From Pseudomonadota bacterium (GTDB taxonomy: Bacteria; Pseudomonadota; Alphaproteobacteria; Puniceispirillales; Marisalimonadaceae), in NCBI GenBank assembly GCA_027625145.1, contig JAQBXK010000018.1, positions 1-40,228 of the forward strand: a DNA stretch of 40,228 bases. The letters are read 5' to 3'. Position 1 is the stretch's first letter. Every line of letters starts with the position of its first letter. A program made the position numbers and the translations under genes. This document shows positions 19,302-39,924 of the stretch, in pieces. The notes beneath the pieces are model-generated. The model saw nothing but the letters and a program-made list of their open reading frames with translations, made no database searches and was not told the DNA's origin.

Positions 19302-20009
19302 CTAGCTCTCTAAAACTGCAGGTTCAAGATAAGAAAAATAAAAATCAATTTTATTATCTATTTGTCTTGCTAACTTTTGAGCTTTCTGATCATTAATTTC
19401 GCAGAAGCTTAACCATAGCTTATAATTATTAAATCTATAGAAGTACTGAAGTATTTCAATTTGGTTGTTACCTACGTACCATGACTTTAAAACCCATCCA
19501 ATACAAAATAACCAAGGAGATGTTATTAATAATATTGAATAATAAACCATAGATATACCAAAAAGCATCCAAAGCCTATTCTGTATCATCCATAAAGGTG
19601 GTGCTAAACTAGCTAAAATTGTTGGAAAAGTATTTAATAGAATACATACATTTCCCATATTTTTATAGATTTCATATTGTTGATAAAAAGCATTTACATC
19701 CATTATTGTTTTTAAATCAATTTTATCTATATCAGGAATTTGATTATCATTTATCTGTTCACAAATGACACCAAGAGAGCCATATACATAGGTATTAAAA
19801 TGAATGCCACCTCTAAGTATAGTCAGAATGCTTTTGTTATCTATATCATTTAATTTTTTTGAAAATACTTCATATGATAAATTCATAAATTCACCATCAA
19901 GACACAATATTATATCATCCTCTTTTAATTTCATTTGATAAGCACGAGAAGAGGTTCTAATAGATGTAATTTTTAAAAATTTTTTTTCTAAATTTTCTTG
20001 ATTATCCAT
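19302..20009 (-). CDS. PDZ-like domain plus membrane protein, unknown function
   Basis: 235 residues; I do not recognise the family. Residues about 10-75 look like a PDZ domain: SSRAYQMKLKEDDIILCLDG matches the carboxylate-loop/GDxIl-xxxG pattern, ending in LTILRGG. Then come two hydrophobic segments (about 121-138 and 146-172) separated by PPLWMIQNRLWM, and a soluble tail of about 60 residues. No signal peptide precedes the PDZ-like domain, so it is probably cytoplasmic. It is the last of four co-directional genes behind flhB, 35 bases after the previous one, and converges on the purF-linked SDR. A flagellar or motor-related role is an inference from position only. Confidence 0.7.
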   Translation of the reverse strand: MDNQENLEKKFLKITSIRTSSRAYQMKLKEDDIILCLDGEFMNLSYEVFSKKLNDIDNKSILTILRGGIHFNTYVYGSLGVICEQINDNQIPDIDKIDLKTIMDVNAFYQQYEIYKNMGNVCILLNTFPTILASLAPPLWMIQNRLWMLFGISMVYYSILLITSPWLFCIGWVLKSWYVGNNQIEILQYFYRFNNYKLWLSFCEINDQKAQKLARQIDNKIDFYFSYLEPAVLES

Positions 20010-20044
20010 TTATAATTAATCCTATTTAATTCTTTTTTAAAATA

Positions 20045-20758
20045 TTATGGATATTTAATTCTACTTGTTTTATCTGCAATTTTACCCAACAAACCATTAT
20101 TTTGTTTAACAAGTTTTGAAATTTGCTGCGCTTGAACTGCTTGATTAGCAATAATTTGTTTGTAAATTGCTTGATTACTAATATCTTTAATAACCTTACT
20201 AATTTTTGTAGTATTTGAAACGGTTATATTTTTTAAAGTGGCATTCATTTTATTATTATTATCCGCATACACTTTTGAGTTTTTATTCAGTTCATCAACT
20301 AAGGTTTGTGAAATAACGCGCAATTCACCTATAGTATTATCGTTACCAGTTTCAATTCTTTTTTCAATTTTTTCCAAAGTTATTACTAATTTTTGATTAA
20401 CAGCTAATAAATCTCCTTGTTTTTTTATTGCCTCATTTAAATTTTTTAAAGATGTGTTTACCCCATCTACATTTTCGGCAAATACAACTAAAGCTTCTCT
20501 ACTTGTTTCCGTCATATTAGTTAATTTATTTGAGCCTTGCATGAATAAAAAAGCACTTACAGCCACGACTATAAGTCCCGAGAAGATAGACGACAAAAAA
20601 ACAACTGTTGTGTATTTATGAATTTGTTTCACTTTTCCCTCCAATATAGCATGTTCTTTTCTTACTTTATTATATTCTGAAGTTACATCAGTTGCGGCAT
20701 CTGCCGCGTCTAAAGCAAGTTTTATACTTTCCTGAACAGCGTCTAATTTATTATCCAT
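20045..20758 (-). CDS. Single-TM coiled-coil protein, unknown function
   Basis: 237 residues, no recognised family. An N-terminal helix rich in Ala, Glu and Lys (about 1-48) is followed by one membrane segment (about 50-73) and a long domain of about 160 residues with heptad-like spacing of hydrophobics, rich in Lys, Asn and Ile. The architecture recalls the signalling or stalk part of chemoreceptors, but the conserved receptor hairpin is absent. The sequence begins MDNKLDAVQESIKLALDAAD and has no cysteine. It sits 26 bases downstream of the cysteine-motif gene in the tail of the flhB operon. A structural or tethering role at the flagellar base is possible but unproven. Confidence 0.7.
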   Translation of the reverse strand: MDNKLDAVQESIKLALDAADAATDVTSEYNKVRKEHAILEGKVKQIHKYTTVVFLSSIFSGLIVVAVSAFLFMQGSNKLTNMTETSREALVVFAENVDGVNTSLKNLNEAIKKQGDLLAVNQKLVITLEKIEKRIETGNDNTIGELRVISQTLVDELNKNSKVYADNNNKMNATLKNITVSNTTKISKVIKDISNQAIYKQIIANQAVQAQQISKLVKQNNGLLGKIADKTSRIKYP

Positions 20759-20784
20759 TTAATTATCCTATAAAAACAAACTAA

Positions 20785-20991
20785 TTATAAAATTTTATTA
20801 TTTAAATTCTTATCAATTCTATATGCACATTCTGTACCAGTTGTATTATAAACTTCAGATGATGGCATAAACTTAGAAATAAAACCAAATTTTTTACATC
20901 CCCATGGACGTTCTTTTTTAAAGGTAATATAAAAATAGATACAACCATGACACCTAATTTTATTGTTTGAAATTATATTTTTATCATCCAT
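20785..20991 (-). CDS. Small four-cysteine protein, putative metal binding
   Basis: 68 residues. It has Cys14-x2-Cys17, Cys32 in RPWGCKKFGF and Cys55 in TGTECAY. The pattern C-x2-C-x2-F...P-x-G-C-x3-G-F-x-S...P-S-x2-V...G-x2-C resembles a widespread family of small conserved proteins that I recall seeing annotated inconsistently; the cysteines suggest a zinc or iron-sulfur site. It lies in the tight run of genes behind flhB, 11 bases after the 74-residue membrane protein. Too short for much else to be said, but the motif conservation argues that it is a real gene. Confidence 0.75.
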   Translation of the reverse strand: MDDKNIISNNKIRCHGCIYFYITFKKERPWGCKKFGFISKFMPSSEVYNTTGTECAYRIDKNLNNKIL

Positions 20992-21002
20992 AAATTAATA
21001 CT

Positions 21003-21227
21003 TTATTTACTAATTTTTTTTTTTATTTTCAAACACCAATATATAAATTCAGCTATCTTAAATCTAAATGCTCCTAAAATAGCTGTAAAACCACAAAACC
21101 AATACAAAATAGCTTTGAGTAATTCTCCTTGTTCTTGCAATTCACTAGCTTCAAAATGACACAACAAAGCTGACCATATAAACATGGCTGTAATAATCAC
21201 TTGACCTAATGTTTTTCTTTTATTCAA
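21003..21227 (-). CDS. Small two-TM membrane protein, unknown
   Basis: 74 residues with two hydrophobic segments (about 8-26 and 39-55) separated by a short acidic loop ELQEQGELLK, and a basic C-terminus (KIKKKISK), suggesting both ends are cytoplasmic. No family recognised. It starts 15 bases after the flhB stop, is co-directional and is followed after 11 bases by the four-cysteine gene, so it is very likely in the fliO-flhB transcript. The start follows GAGGTTATTTTG-type sequence with a plausible GAGG ribosome site. Confidence 0.65.
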   Translation of the reverse strand: MNKRKTLGQVIITAMFIWSALLCHFEASELQEQGELLKAILYWFCGFTAILGAFRFKIAEFIYWCLKIKKKISK

Positions 21228-21242
21228 AATAACCTCATTAAT

Positions 21243-22388
21243 TTATTTGATATTTTTTCCATACTCATCAAAGTTCATTTCATCAGGCACATCAAATTCA
21301 GGATAATCACTTTCTTCTCCTCTTTCAATTTTAAAAATATAGGCAAGGACAGACGCTACTGCTGAATATAAGTTTTCTGAGATTTCTTTTCCTATTTCTC
21401 CTGTAAAATAAATTGCTCTTGCTAAAAGAGGACTTTGAAAAACAGTGACTTGAGCATCTTCAGCCAAACTAATTATTTTTTCTGCCATCATTCCTCTACC
21501 CATTGCTAAAATAATCGGAGCACCTTCTTTGCCTACTTCATATTTAATTGCCACAGCAAAATGTGTAGGGTTGGTAATGATCGCTGAAGCATCTTTCACA
21601 TTCTCTAATGCTGCCGTTTGAGTTGATGCTCTTTGAAAAATTTCATTTTGTAATCTTCTAATTTTTTGTTTAACTTCTGGTGAACCATCTGAATCTTTAT
21701 TCTCGTCTTTAACTTCCTTAAATGTCATTTTTAATTTTTCAACATGAGTATATTTCTGCCACATATAATCGAAAACAGCTATAAAGCCGAGTACTATCAA
21801 TAATGAAATCATTAATTTTGGAAAGTTATCTAAAAGACTTATTAGTGCTGTAAATAAATGTCTTTCTGATAAAATTATAATATCTTTAATATTCAAATAA
21901 ATAATACTAATAGTGATCCCACCAAGCAAAGCTACTTTGAATATCGATTTAATTAATTCAACTAATCCTTTTGATGAAAATATTCTTTTTAATCCTGAAA
22001 AAAGATTTAGTCTATTTGACTTAAATTCAAAACTTTTGGGAGCAAAGTTAATGCCTCCTACTACCATCTGCGTTAAAATAATTGTTATAATTAAAGGTAT
22101 TCCTATAACTAAAGTAATATAAACAACTTGCTTAATTAATTTTCCTATTCCAATCATTGGTGAAGAATTTTCTAAAAAATCCAAATCAAATAAGAAAAAA
22201 ATTTTCCATATAAATAAAAAATCTCTTACGAAAAAAGGTAATGTACTTAAAACGCACAATCCCATAATCAATGTTGTAAAAACAAACATTTCCTTGGAAG
22301 ATAATACCTGACCATCTTCTGCAGCTTTTTCAAGTTTTTTAGCTGAAGGTTCTTGGGTTTTTTCTTGTGAATCATCTTGTTCTGCCAT
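21243..22388 (-). CDS. flhB: Flagellar export apparatus protein FlhB
   Basis: 381 residues, the type III export component that switches substrate specificity from rod/hook to filament. The N-terminus QEKTQEPSAKKLEKAAEDGQV is characteristic; four membrane segments follow (to about residue 215). The cytoplasmic domain carries the autocleavage motif NPTH at about residue 272, within ITNPTHFAVAIKYE. The C-terminus is acidic. Its ATG abuts the fliR stop with no gap. It follows fliO-P-Q-R as in many polar-flagellum operons. Confidence 0.97.
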   Translation of the reverse strand: MAEQDDSQEKTQEPSAKKLEKAAEDGQVLSSKEMFVFTTLIMGLCVLSTLPFFVRDFLFIWKIFFLFDLDFLENSSPMIGIGKLIKQVVYITLVIGIPLIITIILTQMVVGGINFAPKSFEFKSNRLNLFSGLKRIFSSKGLVELIKSIFKVALLGGITISIIYLNIKDIIILSERHLFTALISLLDNFPKLMISLLIVLGFIAVFDYMWQKYTHVEKLKMTFKEVKDENKDSDGSPEVKQKIRRLQNEIFQRASTQTAALENVKDASAIITNPTHFAVAIKYEVGKEGAPIILAMGRGMMAEKIISLAEDAQVTVFQSPLLARAIYFTGEIGKEISENLYSAVASVLAYIFKIERGEESDYPEFDVPDEMNFDEYGKNIK

Positions 22389-24770: not shown

Positions 24771-24802
24771 ATTAATACTTCCTTTACATTTGATGTATAG
24801 AA

Positions 24803-24817
24803 GCAAGAAGTATACCA
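24803..24817 (-). promoter_or_regulatory. Candidate sigma-54 promoter for fliO-P-Q-R-flhB
   Basis: Read on the minus strand this is TGGTATACTTCTTGC, with GG and GC exactly 12 positions apart as in the -24/-12 consensus TGGCAC-N5-TTGC. Transcription would start near 24791, about 20 bases before the fliO ATG. It lies in the only sizeable gap (105 bases) in the fli series, after fliN. Confidence 0.6.
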
Positions 24818-26198: not shown

Positions 26199-26804
26199 TT
26201 ATTGGAGTATAAAAGCTGTAAAATACACGTCTTCAATTCCAGGAAATTCTTTCAATTGATCAAGTTTCTTATTCAAAACCTCTCTTAATTTAACTGAAAG
26301 TTTTTTCTTACCATCACTTCCTGCAATATCTTCTTCTGTAAAATCACTTATTGTTGATAATATTTCTGAACGTAATGATAATTGATGCTGATCAACAGTT
26401 TGCATTACCTTTTCATCATATTGAGTTGAAACACCAACACTTACTTGTAAAAATTTTCTACTACCTTTTAGATTTGTTGTAAAATCTCCAGGAAATTCAA
26501 AATATGTTGTTTCGTAACTATCTATTTCTGGAATAGCTTTAACATTTTTTTTCACAATGCCACCTTCAGTTTCACCTTCAGATGCTTTATTTTTTTCTTC
26601 CATTTCCTTCTTTTTTTGTAATCCCTTATCTTTACCCTCTATGATTTGGTTCACTTCCGATGAAGGATCAGTTTCCGGCTCTCCTCCAAATAATAAATAT
26701 CCAATGCCCAGGCCAATTACTAAAAGTAATACTCCTCCAATAACAAACATTAATATTTTAATAAGAGGACTTTTTTTTGCTTCTTCTTCAACAACTTCTG
26801 CCAT
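26199..26804 (-). CDS. fliL: Flagellar basal body-associated protein FliL
   Basis: 201 residues. A short cytoplasmic N-terminus and one membrane segment (about 14-38) precede a Glu/Lys-rich linker (about 45-85) and the periplasmic FliL domain with TYFEFPGDFTTNLKGSRKFLQVSVGVSTQYDEKV and the C-terminal DQLKEFPGIEDVYFTAFILQ. FliL encircles the stator and supports torque. It is the first gene of the fliL-M-N segment after fliK; no separate promoter is evident. Confidence 0.93.
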   Translation of the reverse strand: MAEVVEEEAKKSPLIKILMFVIGGVLLLVIGLGIGYLLFGGEPETDPSSEVNQIIEGKDKGLQKKKEMEEKNKASEGETEGGIVKKNVKAIPEIDSYETTYFEFPGDFTTNLKGSRKFLQVSVGVSTQYDEKVMQTVDQHQLSLRSEILSTISDFTEEDIAGSDGKKKLSVKLREVLNKKLDQLKEFPGIEDVYFTAFILQ

Positions 26805-35429: not shown

Positions 35430-35461
35430 TTATAACTCCTCATATTTGATGAAATAGAGAA

Positions 35462-35476
35462 GCAAGAATCTTGCCA
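35462..35476 (-). promoter_or_regulatory. Candidate sigma-54 promoter for the activator-fliE-N operon
   Basis: On the minus strand this reads TGGCAAGATTCTTGC, a near-consensus -24/-12 element with GG and GC 12 positions apart. Transcription would begin near 35450, about 20 bases before the activator ATG at 35429. No comparable element was seen before fliE, fliF, fliL or fliM, so it probably drives the whole series. Confidence 0.7.
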
Positions 35477-38110: not shown

Positions 38111-38125
38111 TGGCATAATGATTGC
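38111..38125 (+). promoter_or_regulatory. Candidate sigma-54 promoter of the flagellin gene
   Basis: TGGCATAATGATTGC matches the -24/-12 consensus with correct 12-position spacing between GG and GC. Transcription would start near 38137, giving a short leader that begins just before the AAAGGAG ribosome site (38141-38147). No sigma-28-type element was found. Confidence 0.7.
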
Positions 38126-38154
38126 AGATTTTATCCGAATAAAGGAGATCAAAT

Positions 38155-39924
38155 ATGCCATCAATTAACTCAAATACAAGCGCTTTGTATTCTGTAAACG
38201 CTGCTAGAAAAACTGACAGAGACATGGAATCGTCTATGCAGAGATTATCTACTGGGCTAAGAATTACAAATGCAGGAGATGACGCCTCTGGAGCAGCTAT
38301 ATCGGATAGAATGACAGCCAATATCAAAGGTATACAGCAGTCTATAAGGAATGCTGGTGATGTTATTTCAATGGCTCAAGTATCAGAGGGTGCCTTAGGT
38401 GAAGCATCCAGCGTACTTCAAAGAATACGAGAATTAGCTATTCAATCAGCATCAGATGTTATGAGTGCTACTGAAAGAAATTATATTCAGACTGAAGTAA
38501 GTCAATTGATTCAAGAATTTGATAGAGTTACTAAAGATACCACTTTTAATGAAATAAACGTGCTTGATGGCTCATTTGCAAGTAGAACGTTTCAAATTGG
38601 TATTAAAAAAGGCGAATCTGCGTCTATATCTGTAGGTTCTATGAGAATAGATCAATTAGGTGCTTACGAACATTCAACAGATATGGACAGCACAGACTTT
38701 GACGCATCAACTGGTGCTAAGCTAGTAGCTAGTGCTTCAGTCGTCAACCATGTTGAAGCGGATACTATAACTATTGCAGGACAACTTGGATCAGCAAATG
38801 TTGCTGTAGCTGTAGGTGCAACAGCCAGAGATATTGCTACTAATATTAACAATGTATTTGAAAGTACAGGAGTAGATGCTAATGCATCAACACAACTGAA
38901 ATTTGAAGGTTTGGCCTCTACTGGCAACACAGGTGTTGTAAGTGTTGCTTTTGACCTTCATGGCTCAAATACAACTGCTGTTAAAATTTCTGGATCTGTT
39001 AATTTAGGAGCAACTACCGGAGTATCAGATTTTACAGAATTAAGAGATAGTATTAATGCTTACACAGCTCAAACTGGTGTAGAAGCTGTTTTATCTACAG
39101 ATTTCTCATACCTATATTTAACCCAACCAGAAGGTTACGACATTAAAATCGCCGATGTTGATTTTGATGTGGAAACTACTGCAAGTGCTAATGCCACAAC
39201 ACTTGGAGCACCGGCAGCGGCAGCTGATACTACTCTTACGGTAGCAAGCTCACTTAATATGCTTGTAGGTGATCTAGTTACAGGTGTGGGCATAGCTCCT
39301 GGTACAAAAGTAGCAACTATTGCTAGTGGTGGTACATCAATCACTATATCTCCTGGCGTTGAAACAGCTATGTTGATTAGTGCAGCCATTACTGTTGGAG
39401 CAGACCGTGTTTTTAAAATAACTGGAATGAGTGAAGATCTTACAACTGCTGGTTATCAAGCTGACTTGTTTGATAAAGACCATATTAGTGGTGTTCACGA
39501 CTCAGCAATTGTAACTGGACAAGTAACAATGGCATCAAGTAAACAATTTACAGTTAATGGTGACGTTACTAAAGGTCTTTTTACAACTAACCCAGGTGCT
39601 GCAACTTTAAATAAATTATCCACTTTAAGCGTTCTAACAAGACAAGGTTCAACTGACAGTCTTGTCGTATTAGATAAAGCAATGGATAGAATAAATCTTG
39701 AAAGAGCGAAGCTTGGAGCCATTATGAGTAGAATGGAGAAAGCGGTCGATAACTTATCAAACGTTGCTATGAACACAACAGCATCAAAAGGTAGAATAGT
39801 AGACGCAGATTTTGCTTTAGAATCAGCTAACTTAACTAAGGCTCAAATTCTTCAATCATCTGCAACAGCAATGATAGCTCAAGCAAGTAAGTCAATGCAA
39901 ACAGTTTTAGAATTATTACGTTAA
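38155..39924 (+). CDS. fliC: Flagellin, large, with extended variable domain
   Basis: 589 residues. Residues 1-140 are the conserved D0/D1 region (INSNTSALYSVNAARK, STGLRITNAGDDASGAAISD, ELAIQSASD) and about 495-589 the C-terminal partner (IVDADFALESANLTKAQILQ, ending VLELLR). The 350-residue middle has two Flagellin_IN-like units (near 210-260 and 295-335) and an Ala/Gly-rich segment (near 345-420) with the surface-protein pattern GDLVTGVGIAPGTKVATIASG. The ribosome site AAAGGAG lies seven bases before the ATG. The base composition is richer in GC than the neighbours, as expected for a highly expressed gene. Confidence 0.96.
   Translation: MPSINSNTSALYSVNAARKTDRDMESSMQRLSTGLRITNAGDDASGAAISDRMTANIKGIQQSIRNAGDVISMAQVSEGALGEASSVLQRIRELAIQSASDVMSATERNYIQTEVSQLIQEFDRVTKDTTFNEINVLDGSFASRTFQIGIKKGESASISVGSMRIDQLGAYEHSTDMDSTDFDASTGAKLVASASVVNHVEADTITIAGQLGSANVAVAVGATARDIATNINNVFESTGVDANASTQLKFEGLASTGNTGVVSVAFDLHGSNTTAVKISGSVNLGATTGVSDFTELRDSINAYTAQTGVEAVLSTDFSYLYLTQPEGYDIKIADVDFDVETTASANATTLGAPAAAADTTLTVASSLNMLVGDLVTGVGIAPGTKVATIASGGTSITISPGVETAMLISAAITVGADRVFKITGMSEDLTTAGYQADLFDKDHISGVHDSAIVTGQVTMASSKQFTVNGDVTKGLFTTNPGAATLNKLSTLSVLTRQGSTDSLVVLDKAMDRINLERAKLGAIMSRMEKAVDNLSNVAMNTTASKGRIVDADFALESANLTKAQILQSSATAMIAQASKSMQTVLELLR

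Follow-up and report, generated by a model that had tools for sequence, protein, structure and literature searches.

A conserved gene cassette behind flhB in SAR116 and other marine alphaproteobacteria encodes a MotF orthologue and a predicted PDZ membrane protein

The closest described counterpart of the locus analyzed here is the Fla1 flagellar locus of Cereibacter sphaeroides. MotF of this species is a 24-kDa protein with a transmembrane (TM) segment at residues 54-74 and a periplasmic C-terminal part (PMC7277832). It is required for Fla1 rotation, and motF mutants are non-swimming (paralysed). Single changes in the MotB plug restore swimming of these mutants, and the same alleles bypass the loss of FliL (PMC7277832). 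The FlgT H-ring is needed for the recruitment of GFP-MotF and FlgT binds MotF; MotF and its partners FliL and FlgT act on the MotB plug (PMC7277832). The PflC, PflA and PflB proteins of Campylobacter jejuni are likewise motor accessories, with a role in positioning or supporting the stators, and PflC has a PDZ domain. To our knowledge, MotF has so far been described as Cereibacter-specific or limited to some Rhodobacteraceae.

We analyzed a stretch of 40,228 nucleotides (the window) from contig JAQBXK010000018.1 of a SAR116-type (Puniceispirillales) alphaproteobacterial genome of 2.27 Mb. ORF calling placed four genes, orf74, orf68, orf237 and orf235, downstream of flhB and co-directional with it, all on the minus strand (Table 1). 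The gaps from flhB through orf74, orf68 and orf237 to orf235 are 15, 11, 26 and 35 bases, in exact agreement with a preliminary description of four same-strand genes at this site. A convergent SDR gene ends 21 bases past orf235. The terminator scan of the locus returned no terminator-like sites between the four genes, and the promoter scan of the window returned no excess relative to shuffled sequences. Sigma-54-like sites are weakly enriched in the window (20 versus 13.3 +/- 3.3 in shuffles; 3 of 100) but give no evidence that the four genes have a promoter of their own. Individual sites of this -24/-12 type lie just 5' of fliO (24802-24817, minus strand), of a sigma-54 regulator gene (35461-35476, minus strand) and of a flagellin gene (38111-38126, plus strand). 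The flagellin-like protein of the window (38155-39924) is long, at 589 aa, with a big central stretch flanked by conserved ends.

Table 1. Positions of the flhB-linked genes, their predicted domains and fliL in the window
Feature	Coordinates	Strand	Description and support
flhB	21243..22388	-	381 aa, export-gate gene, first of cassette; PF01312 E=7e-99; FlhB belongs to the cassette-bearing clade
orf74	21003..21227	-	74 aa, TTG start, predicted 2-TM hairpin; conserved position downstream of flhB and charge pattern
orf68	20785..20991	-	68 aa, four-cysteine protein, C14/C17/C32/C55
orf68 cysteine core C-x2-C-x14-C-x22-C	20827..20952	-	alignments A3 and A6
orf237, identified as motF orthologue	20045..20758	-	237 aa; predicted cytosolic N-terminal helix (N-in), one TM, periplasmic coiled coil
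MotF transmembrane helix, about residues 50-72	20543..20611	-	hydropathy; C. sphaeroides MotF 54-74
MotF C-terminus IKYP-COOH, predicted periplasmic	20048..20059	-	conserved end among homologues
orf235	19302..20009	-	235 aa, predicted PDZ plus DUF2628-like membrane hairpin; motF neighbour
orf235 PDZ domain, residues 7-90, predicted cytosolic	19740..19991	-	AF2 model; RseP/GRASP PDZ matches
orf235 helical membrane hairpin, residues 147-193	19431..19571	-	model; DUF2628 matches in family; charges
fliL, functional partner of MotF	26199..26804	-	PF03748 E=1.6e-19

The arrangement resembles that of the Fla1 locus. Common to both are a motF gene behind flhB, directly so in C. sphaeroides and here with two extra genes (2-TM and four-cysteine) in between, as well as a TM segment near residue 54, a periplasmic C-terminus (here predicted) and a [YF]P end of the protein. 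A PDZ-DUF2628 gene comes next in both, and FliL, FlgT, LPP20/FlgP and MotB are encoded in both. The periplasmic part differs, being a coiled coil here and lacking the Ala/Pro/Lys-rich linker that C. sphaeroides has. The flagellar cluster on plasmid pOA238_118 of Octadecabacter arcticus likewise has flhB followed by the four genes in this order, with FlgT and LPP20 genes nearby and with the counterparts of orf74 and orf68 left unannotated, but differs by an extra small ORF and rpoN after the PDZ gene. This extra ORF (L032 20736-21026), between the PDZ gene and rpoN, encodes 96 aa and is annotated as 87 aa.

Scanned singly against Pfam and NCBIfam, none of the four proteins gave a match over the cut-off, and family profiles were therefore built first. 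About 25 of the 394 Rhodobacteraceae genomes searched with the orf237 profile gave a homologue, in a smooth E-value series from 5e-74 to 1e-6. The genome of C. sphaeroides 2.4.1 was recognized by a 105-kb contig that matches the 2.4.1 plasmids at 99.9%. Its flhB is followed by a 258-codon ORF matching the A1 profile of orf237 (E=3.6e-8), then by an orf235 homologue (E 4.9e-15) and then by rpoN on the opposite strand. We take motF of C. sphaeroides to be RSP_0067, as reportedly given by Ramirez-Cabrera et al. 2012, and this assignment has independent checks in position, mass and TM segment. A published table lists RSP_0066 as flhB and describes RSP_0067 as hypothetical and co-regulated with genes of the flagellum (PMC9779115). 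Read from its second Met, the C. sphaeroides ORF has a computed length of 239 aa, a mass of 24.8 kDa and a TM segment at 54-72; orf237 has a computed mass of 26.2 kDa and a single TM segment with its core at 52-70. Comparison of the SAR116-only and the Cereibacter-like MotF profiles gave an hhalign probability of 99.4% (E=9.7e-22). SAR116 and C. sphaeroides MotF share only 13-14% identity, most of it within the first 110 residues. The charge bias of orf237 is compatible with an N-in/C-out orientation; the periplasmic location of the C-terminal part is experimental in C. sphaeroides only. Searching for MotF phylum-wide outside the Alphaproteobacteria returned only matches at E 1e-4 that are limited to the coiled coil, which we read as chance.

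Sequence and position together identify orf237 as an orthologue of MotF, and on the same comparison MotF is neither Cereibacter- nor Rhodobacteraceae-specific. What is new here is the extended MotF family, its PDZ partner and a near-invariant Tyr/Phe-Pro C-terminus. The preliminary description had treated all four proteins as uncharacterized, which does not hold for the 237-aa protein, characterized as MotF in C. sphaeroides; its suggestion of an envelope or motor accessory module gains support from this homology, beyond position, and from the association of the genes with one FlhB clade. We considered two further candidates. The protein called MotF in Sinorhizobium and Agrobacterium is like orf237 in name, in its motility role and in its suppression by stator mutations, but it is a FliL paralogue. 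The FliL domain is absent from orf237 and its family, and we rejected this Rhizobiaceae protein as the identity of orf237; the two are unrelated and their names clash. The Roseobacter CP1-4 proteins were also considered, and are reported only in fla1-type clusters and absent from fla2 and fla3 (PMC12363192).

Tyr-Pro or Phe-Pro closes 131 of the 133 complete MotF homologues, for example as IKYP here, IRYP in C. sphaeroides and IKFP in Octadecabacter. The sequence before this tail diverges, and in Rhodobacteraceae it is an Ala/Pro/Lys-rich linker. The aromatic-Pro end may be a docking tail that closes a periplasmic tether; because FlgT binds MotF, it would be the first partner to consider.

The gene next to motF is orf235 in all 131 testable loci (137 loci in total, 6 of which lie on contigs that end there). 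The SAR116 and C. sphaeroides-like orf235 profiles match with an hhalign probability of 99.9% (E=2.5e-32). In the AlphaFold2 model of orf235 (pLDDT 86.7, pTM 0.80), residues 7-90 adopt a PDZ fold; a beta hairpin, a membrane hairpin of helices and a last beta-alpha unit make up the rest. Among solved structures, the PDZ domains of RseP and GRASP match the model with Z about 8-10, and those of DegP/DegQ match orf235 by profile. The structure-search list was filled by PDZ chains, so it is informative for the PDZ half of the protein and barely for the second half. PDZ_6 matches 19 of 23 family members and DUF2628 (PF10947) matches 14 of 23 at E<1 (best 1.3e-4), with no match of either to the window protein alone. 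DUF2628 thus resembles, weakly, the C-terminal membrane hairpin of orf235 relatives, which differ from it in the PDZ fusion and the flagellar linkage; we found no literature tying DUF2628 to flagella. Lys and Arg residues lie on both flanks of the membrane hairpin and none in its loop, and both ends of orf235 are therefore probably cytosolic. No signal peptide was found in orf235, and the PDZ domain is probably cytosolic as well. In this it differs from PflC, a periplasmic HtrA-like protein, whereas orf235 combines an N-terminal PDZ domain with a DUF2628-like hairpin. The PDZ call of the preliminary description is borne out by the family matches and the modelled fold; its remark that such a domain mix is unfamiliar from flagella needs amending, as PDZ domains are known in flagellar motors from C. 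jejuni PflC.

The two small genes are more variable in their distribution. Downstream of flhB, orf74 was found in SAR116, other marine alphaproteobacteria, Octadecabacter and most Rhodobacteraceae loci, and was missing beside flhB in C. sphaeroides itself. It matches no Pfam family, and its predicted topology is N-in/C-in. The cysteines C14, C17, C32 and C55 of orf68 are invariant (alignments A3, A6), and orf68 probably binds metal. A Cys4 zinc ribbon is a candidate fold for it; its AlphaFold model is too poor to use (pLDDT 49), and PDB profile matches to GATA fingers, only at E 0.4-0.8, were not used. Eight Rhodobacteraceae loci, the C. sphaeroides-like ones, lack orf68, and orf74 and orf68 have been lost in some Rhodobacteraceae where motF remains. 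Within 387 alphaproteobacterial genomes, the orf68 profile matched 14, and the matches outside SAR116 are all behind flhB with orf237 next. A wider family with the features CxxC, FGFKS and C is widespread in other proteobacterial classes and is covered by no Pfam family. In a sample of 396 genomes from the phylum, 47 further genomes have it, most of them from other classes; the 29 loci inspected show no flhB, fliR or other member of the cassette in a surrounding stretch of about 1.5 kb. Rieske genes stand beside the orf68 relatives in two of four fully read loci, together with Fe-S assembly-like genes in one. The orf68 gene was probably drawn from this wider family, and orf74 and orf68 would be older, losable parts of the cassette. 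In the gene-neighborhood comparison proposed by the preliminary description, homologues of the 74-, 237- and 235-aa proteins are not mostly found away from flagellar genes; the same is true of the four-cysteine family in alphaproteobacteria, but not of its non-flagellar branch in other proteobacterial classes.

We assessed how far the gene order is conserved, using genome samples that are draws and not censuses. The order recurs in all SAR116 families checked, in other marine alphaproteobacteria and on the Octadecabacter plasmid, and in shortened form in C. sphaeroides. Chance ORFs are ruled out because homologues of all four genes, arranged as here, occur throughout the taxonomic order and outside it. 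The SAR116-order loci (n=30) read fliR-flhB-(orf74)-orf68-orf237-orf235 wherever flhB was reached; orf74 lacks a tblastn match in some of them, where it has usually diverged and its absence is not demonstrated. All five genes are present in 75 of 80 loci of the genome collection, the remaining 5 being short contigs or contig ends. Homologues of orf235 were detected in 46 of 61 relatives from the same order. Of these 61 genomes, 45 have FlhB together with orf235 and 14 have neither, with one mismatch each way (Fisher p=1e-11, computed over related genomes that are not independent). Both mismatches are contig breaks: in G027, flhB is on a 7.4-kb contig ending after motF, and in G039, orf235 is at the extreme end of a 4.6-kb contig. 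The single-contig genome G043 has neither gene.

The search for FlhB in 389 genomes gave a bimodal distribution, with 12 proteins of the cassette type (E 4.5e-83 or better) and the next at 2e-64. The cassette is present in 11 of these 12 genomes. The exception, G399 (Rhodobacteraceae; L197 7130-7339), has kept a cassette-type FlhB and, of the four genes, orf74 only; MotF was not detectable there. In a tree of 58 FlhB proteins (quick method, midpoint root), a branch with SH-aLRT 100 separates the 33 cassette-bearing rows and G399 from the four beta/gamma FlhB sampled and the ordinary alphaproteobacterial FlhB. By these comparisons the four genes are a real conserved cassette that travels with one FlhB clade, and its history fits a single gain with later losses.

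The source genome encodes FliL, MotB with a plug, FlgT and an LPP20/FlgP-like lipoprotein, whose gene adjoins that of FlgT. Across the order, FlgT tends to be found in the same genomes as orf235 (p=0.003). In a second flagellar locus (contig C33, locus L299 7316-14128), the LPP20/FlgP-like and FlgT genes share one strand, and the opposite strand has flhA, flhF-like and flhG-like genes along with a gene for a FliA-type sigma factor. Genes of the flhA, flhF and flhG kind, which the preliminary description expected after flhB, are thus missing from this site but present in the genome.

We consider it very likely that the four genes form a flagellar motor-activation cassette, with MotF and its PDZ-DUF2628 partner orf235 as the core. 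MotF would be an inner-membrane protein made up of a short helix in the cytosol, a single TM segment, a long periplasmic coiled coil and the aromatic-Pro tail. By orthology to C. sphaeroides, it would be recruited to the basal body via the FlgT H-ring and, with FliL, would rearrange the MotB plug so that the stator proton channel opens. The orf235 protein would lie on the cytosolic face and hold MotF or another protein tail at the motor, and the 2-TM and four-cysteine proteins may be assembly or stability helpers that were lost in some lineages. More tentatively, orf235 could be a motor regulator of a new kind, a membrane-anchored PDZ receptor for a protein C-terminus that would make the opening of the stators by way of MotF depend on a completed export gate or basal body. 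Its ligand may be a tail in the cytosol, with FlhB and MotA as examples, or, with reversed topology, the aromatic-Pro tail of MotF. A lock on the periplasmic side, in which a periplasmic orf235 PDZ domain binds the aromatic-Pro-COOH of MotF between the stator collar and the membrane, seems improbable. Strict pairing of MotF with orf235 (131/131) and the constancy of the MotF end (131/133) are the pattern expected of a PDZ domain and its ligand, PDZ domains bind C-termini, and the closest solved ones include the periplasmic PDZ of RseP. However, orf235 has no signal peptide, its charges put both ends of the hairpin in the cytosol, and Pro is an unusual last residue for a PDZ ligand.

Two other readings, each of which we hold to be a little less probable still, concern the cassette as a whole. 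Its position directly behind fliO-fliP-fliQ-fliR-flhB, and its being missing together with flhB, would suit a module for flagellum assembly or export via the FlhB gate instead of stator activation. Yet C. sphaeroides motF mutants are paralysed and suppressed by MotB plug changes, not defective in assembly (PMC7277832), and in G572 motF and orf235 are retained at a locus whose 16 kb of sequence yielded no flhB. Alternatively, the cassette could be only a linked passenger: its position would be conserved without any shared function, and the four-cysteine and 2-TM genes would have nothing to do with MotF. The orf68 relatives near Rieske and Fe-S genes in two non-alphaproteobacterial loci, and the Rhodobacteraceae in which motF outlasts orf74 and orf68, are in line with this, but deeply divergent families and a plasmid all preserve the order, and in testable loci orf235 is never apart from motF. 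Against the motor-activation reading itself stand the low identity of the SAR116 and C. sphaeroides MotF proteins and genome G399, with this FlhB type and orf74 but no detectable MotF.

MotF, known from one species, would thus be the core of a conserved cassette in one flagellar lineage present in SAR116 and other marine alphaproteobacteria. The MotF alignment now holds well over a hundred sequences, and a PDZ partner and a conserved tail can be named. The comparison also bears on the origin of the C. sphaeroides Fla1 flagellum, as its FlhB groups with those of these alphaproteobacteria, apart from the four beta/gamma FlhB sampled.
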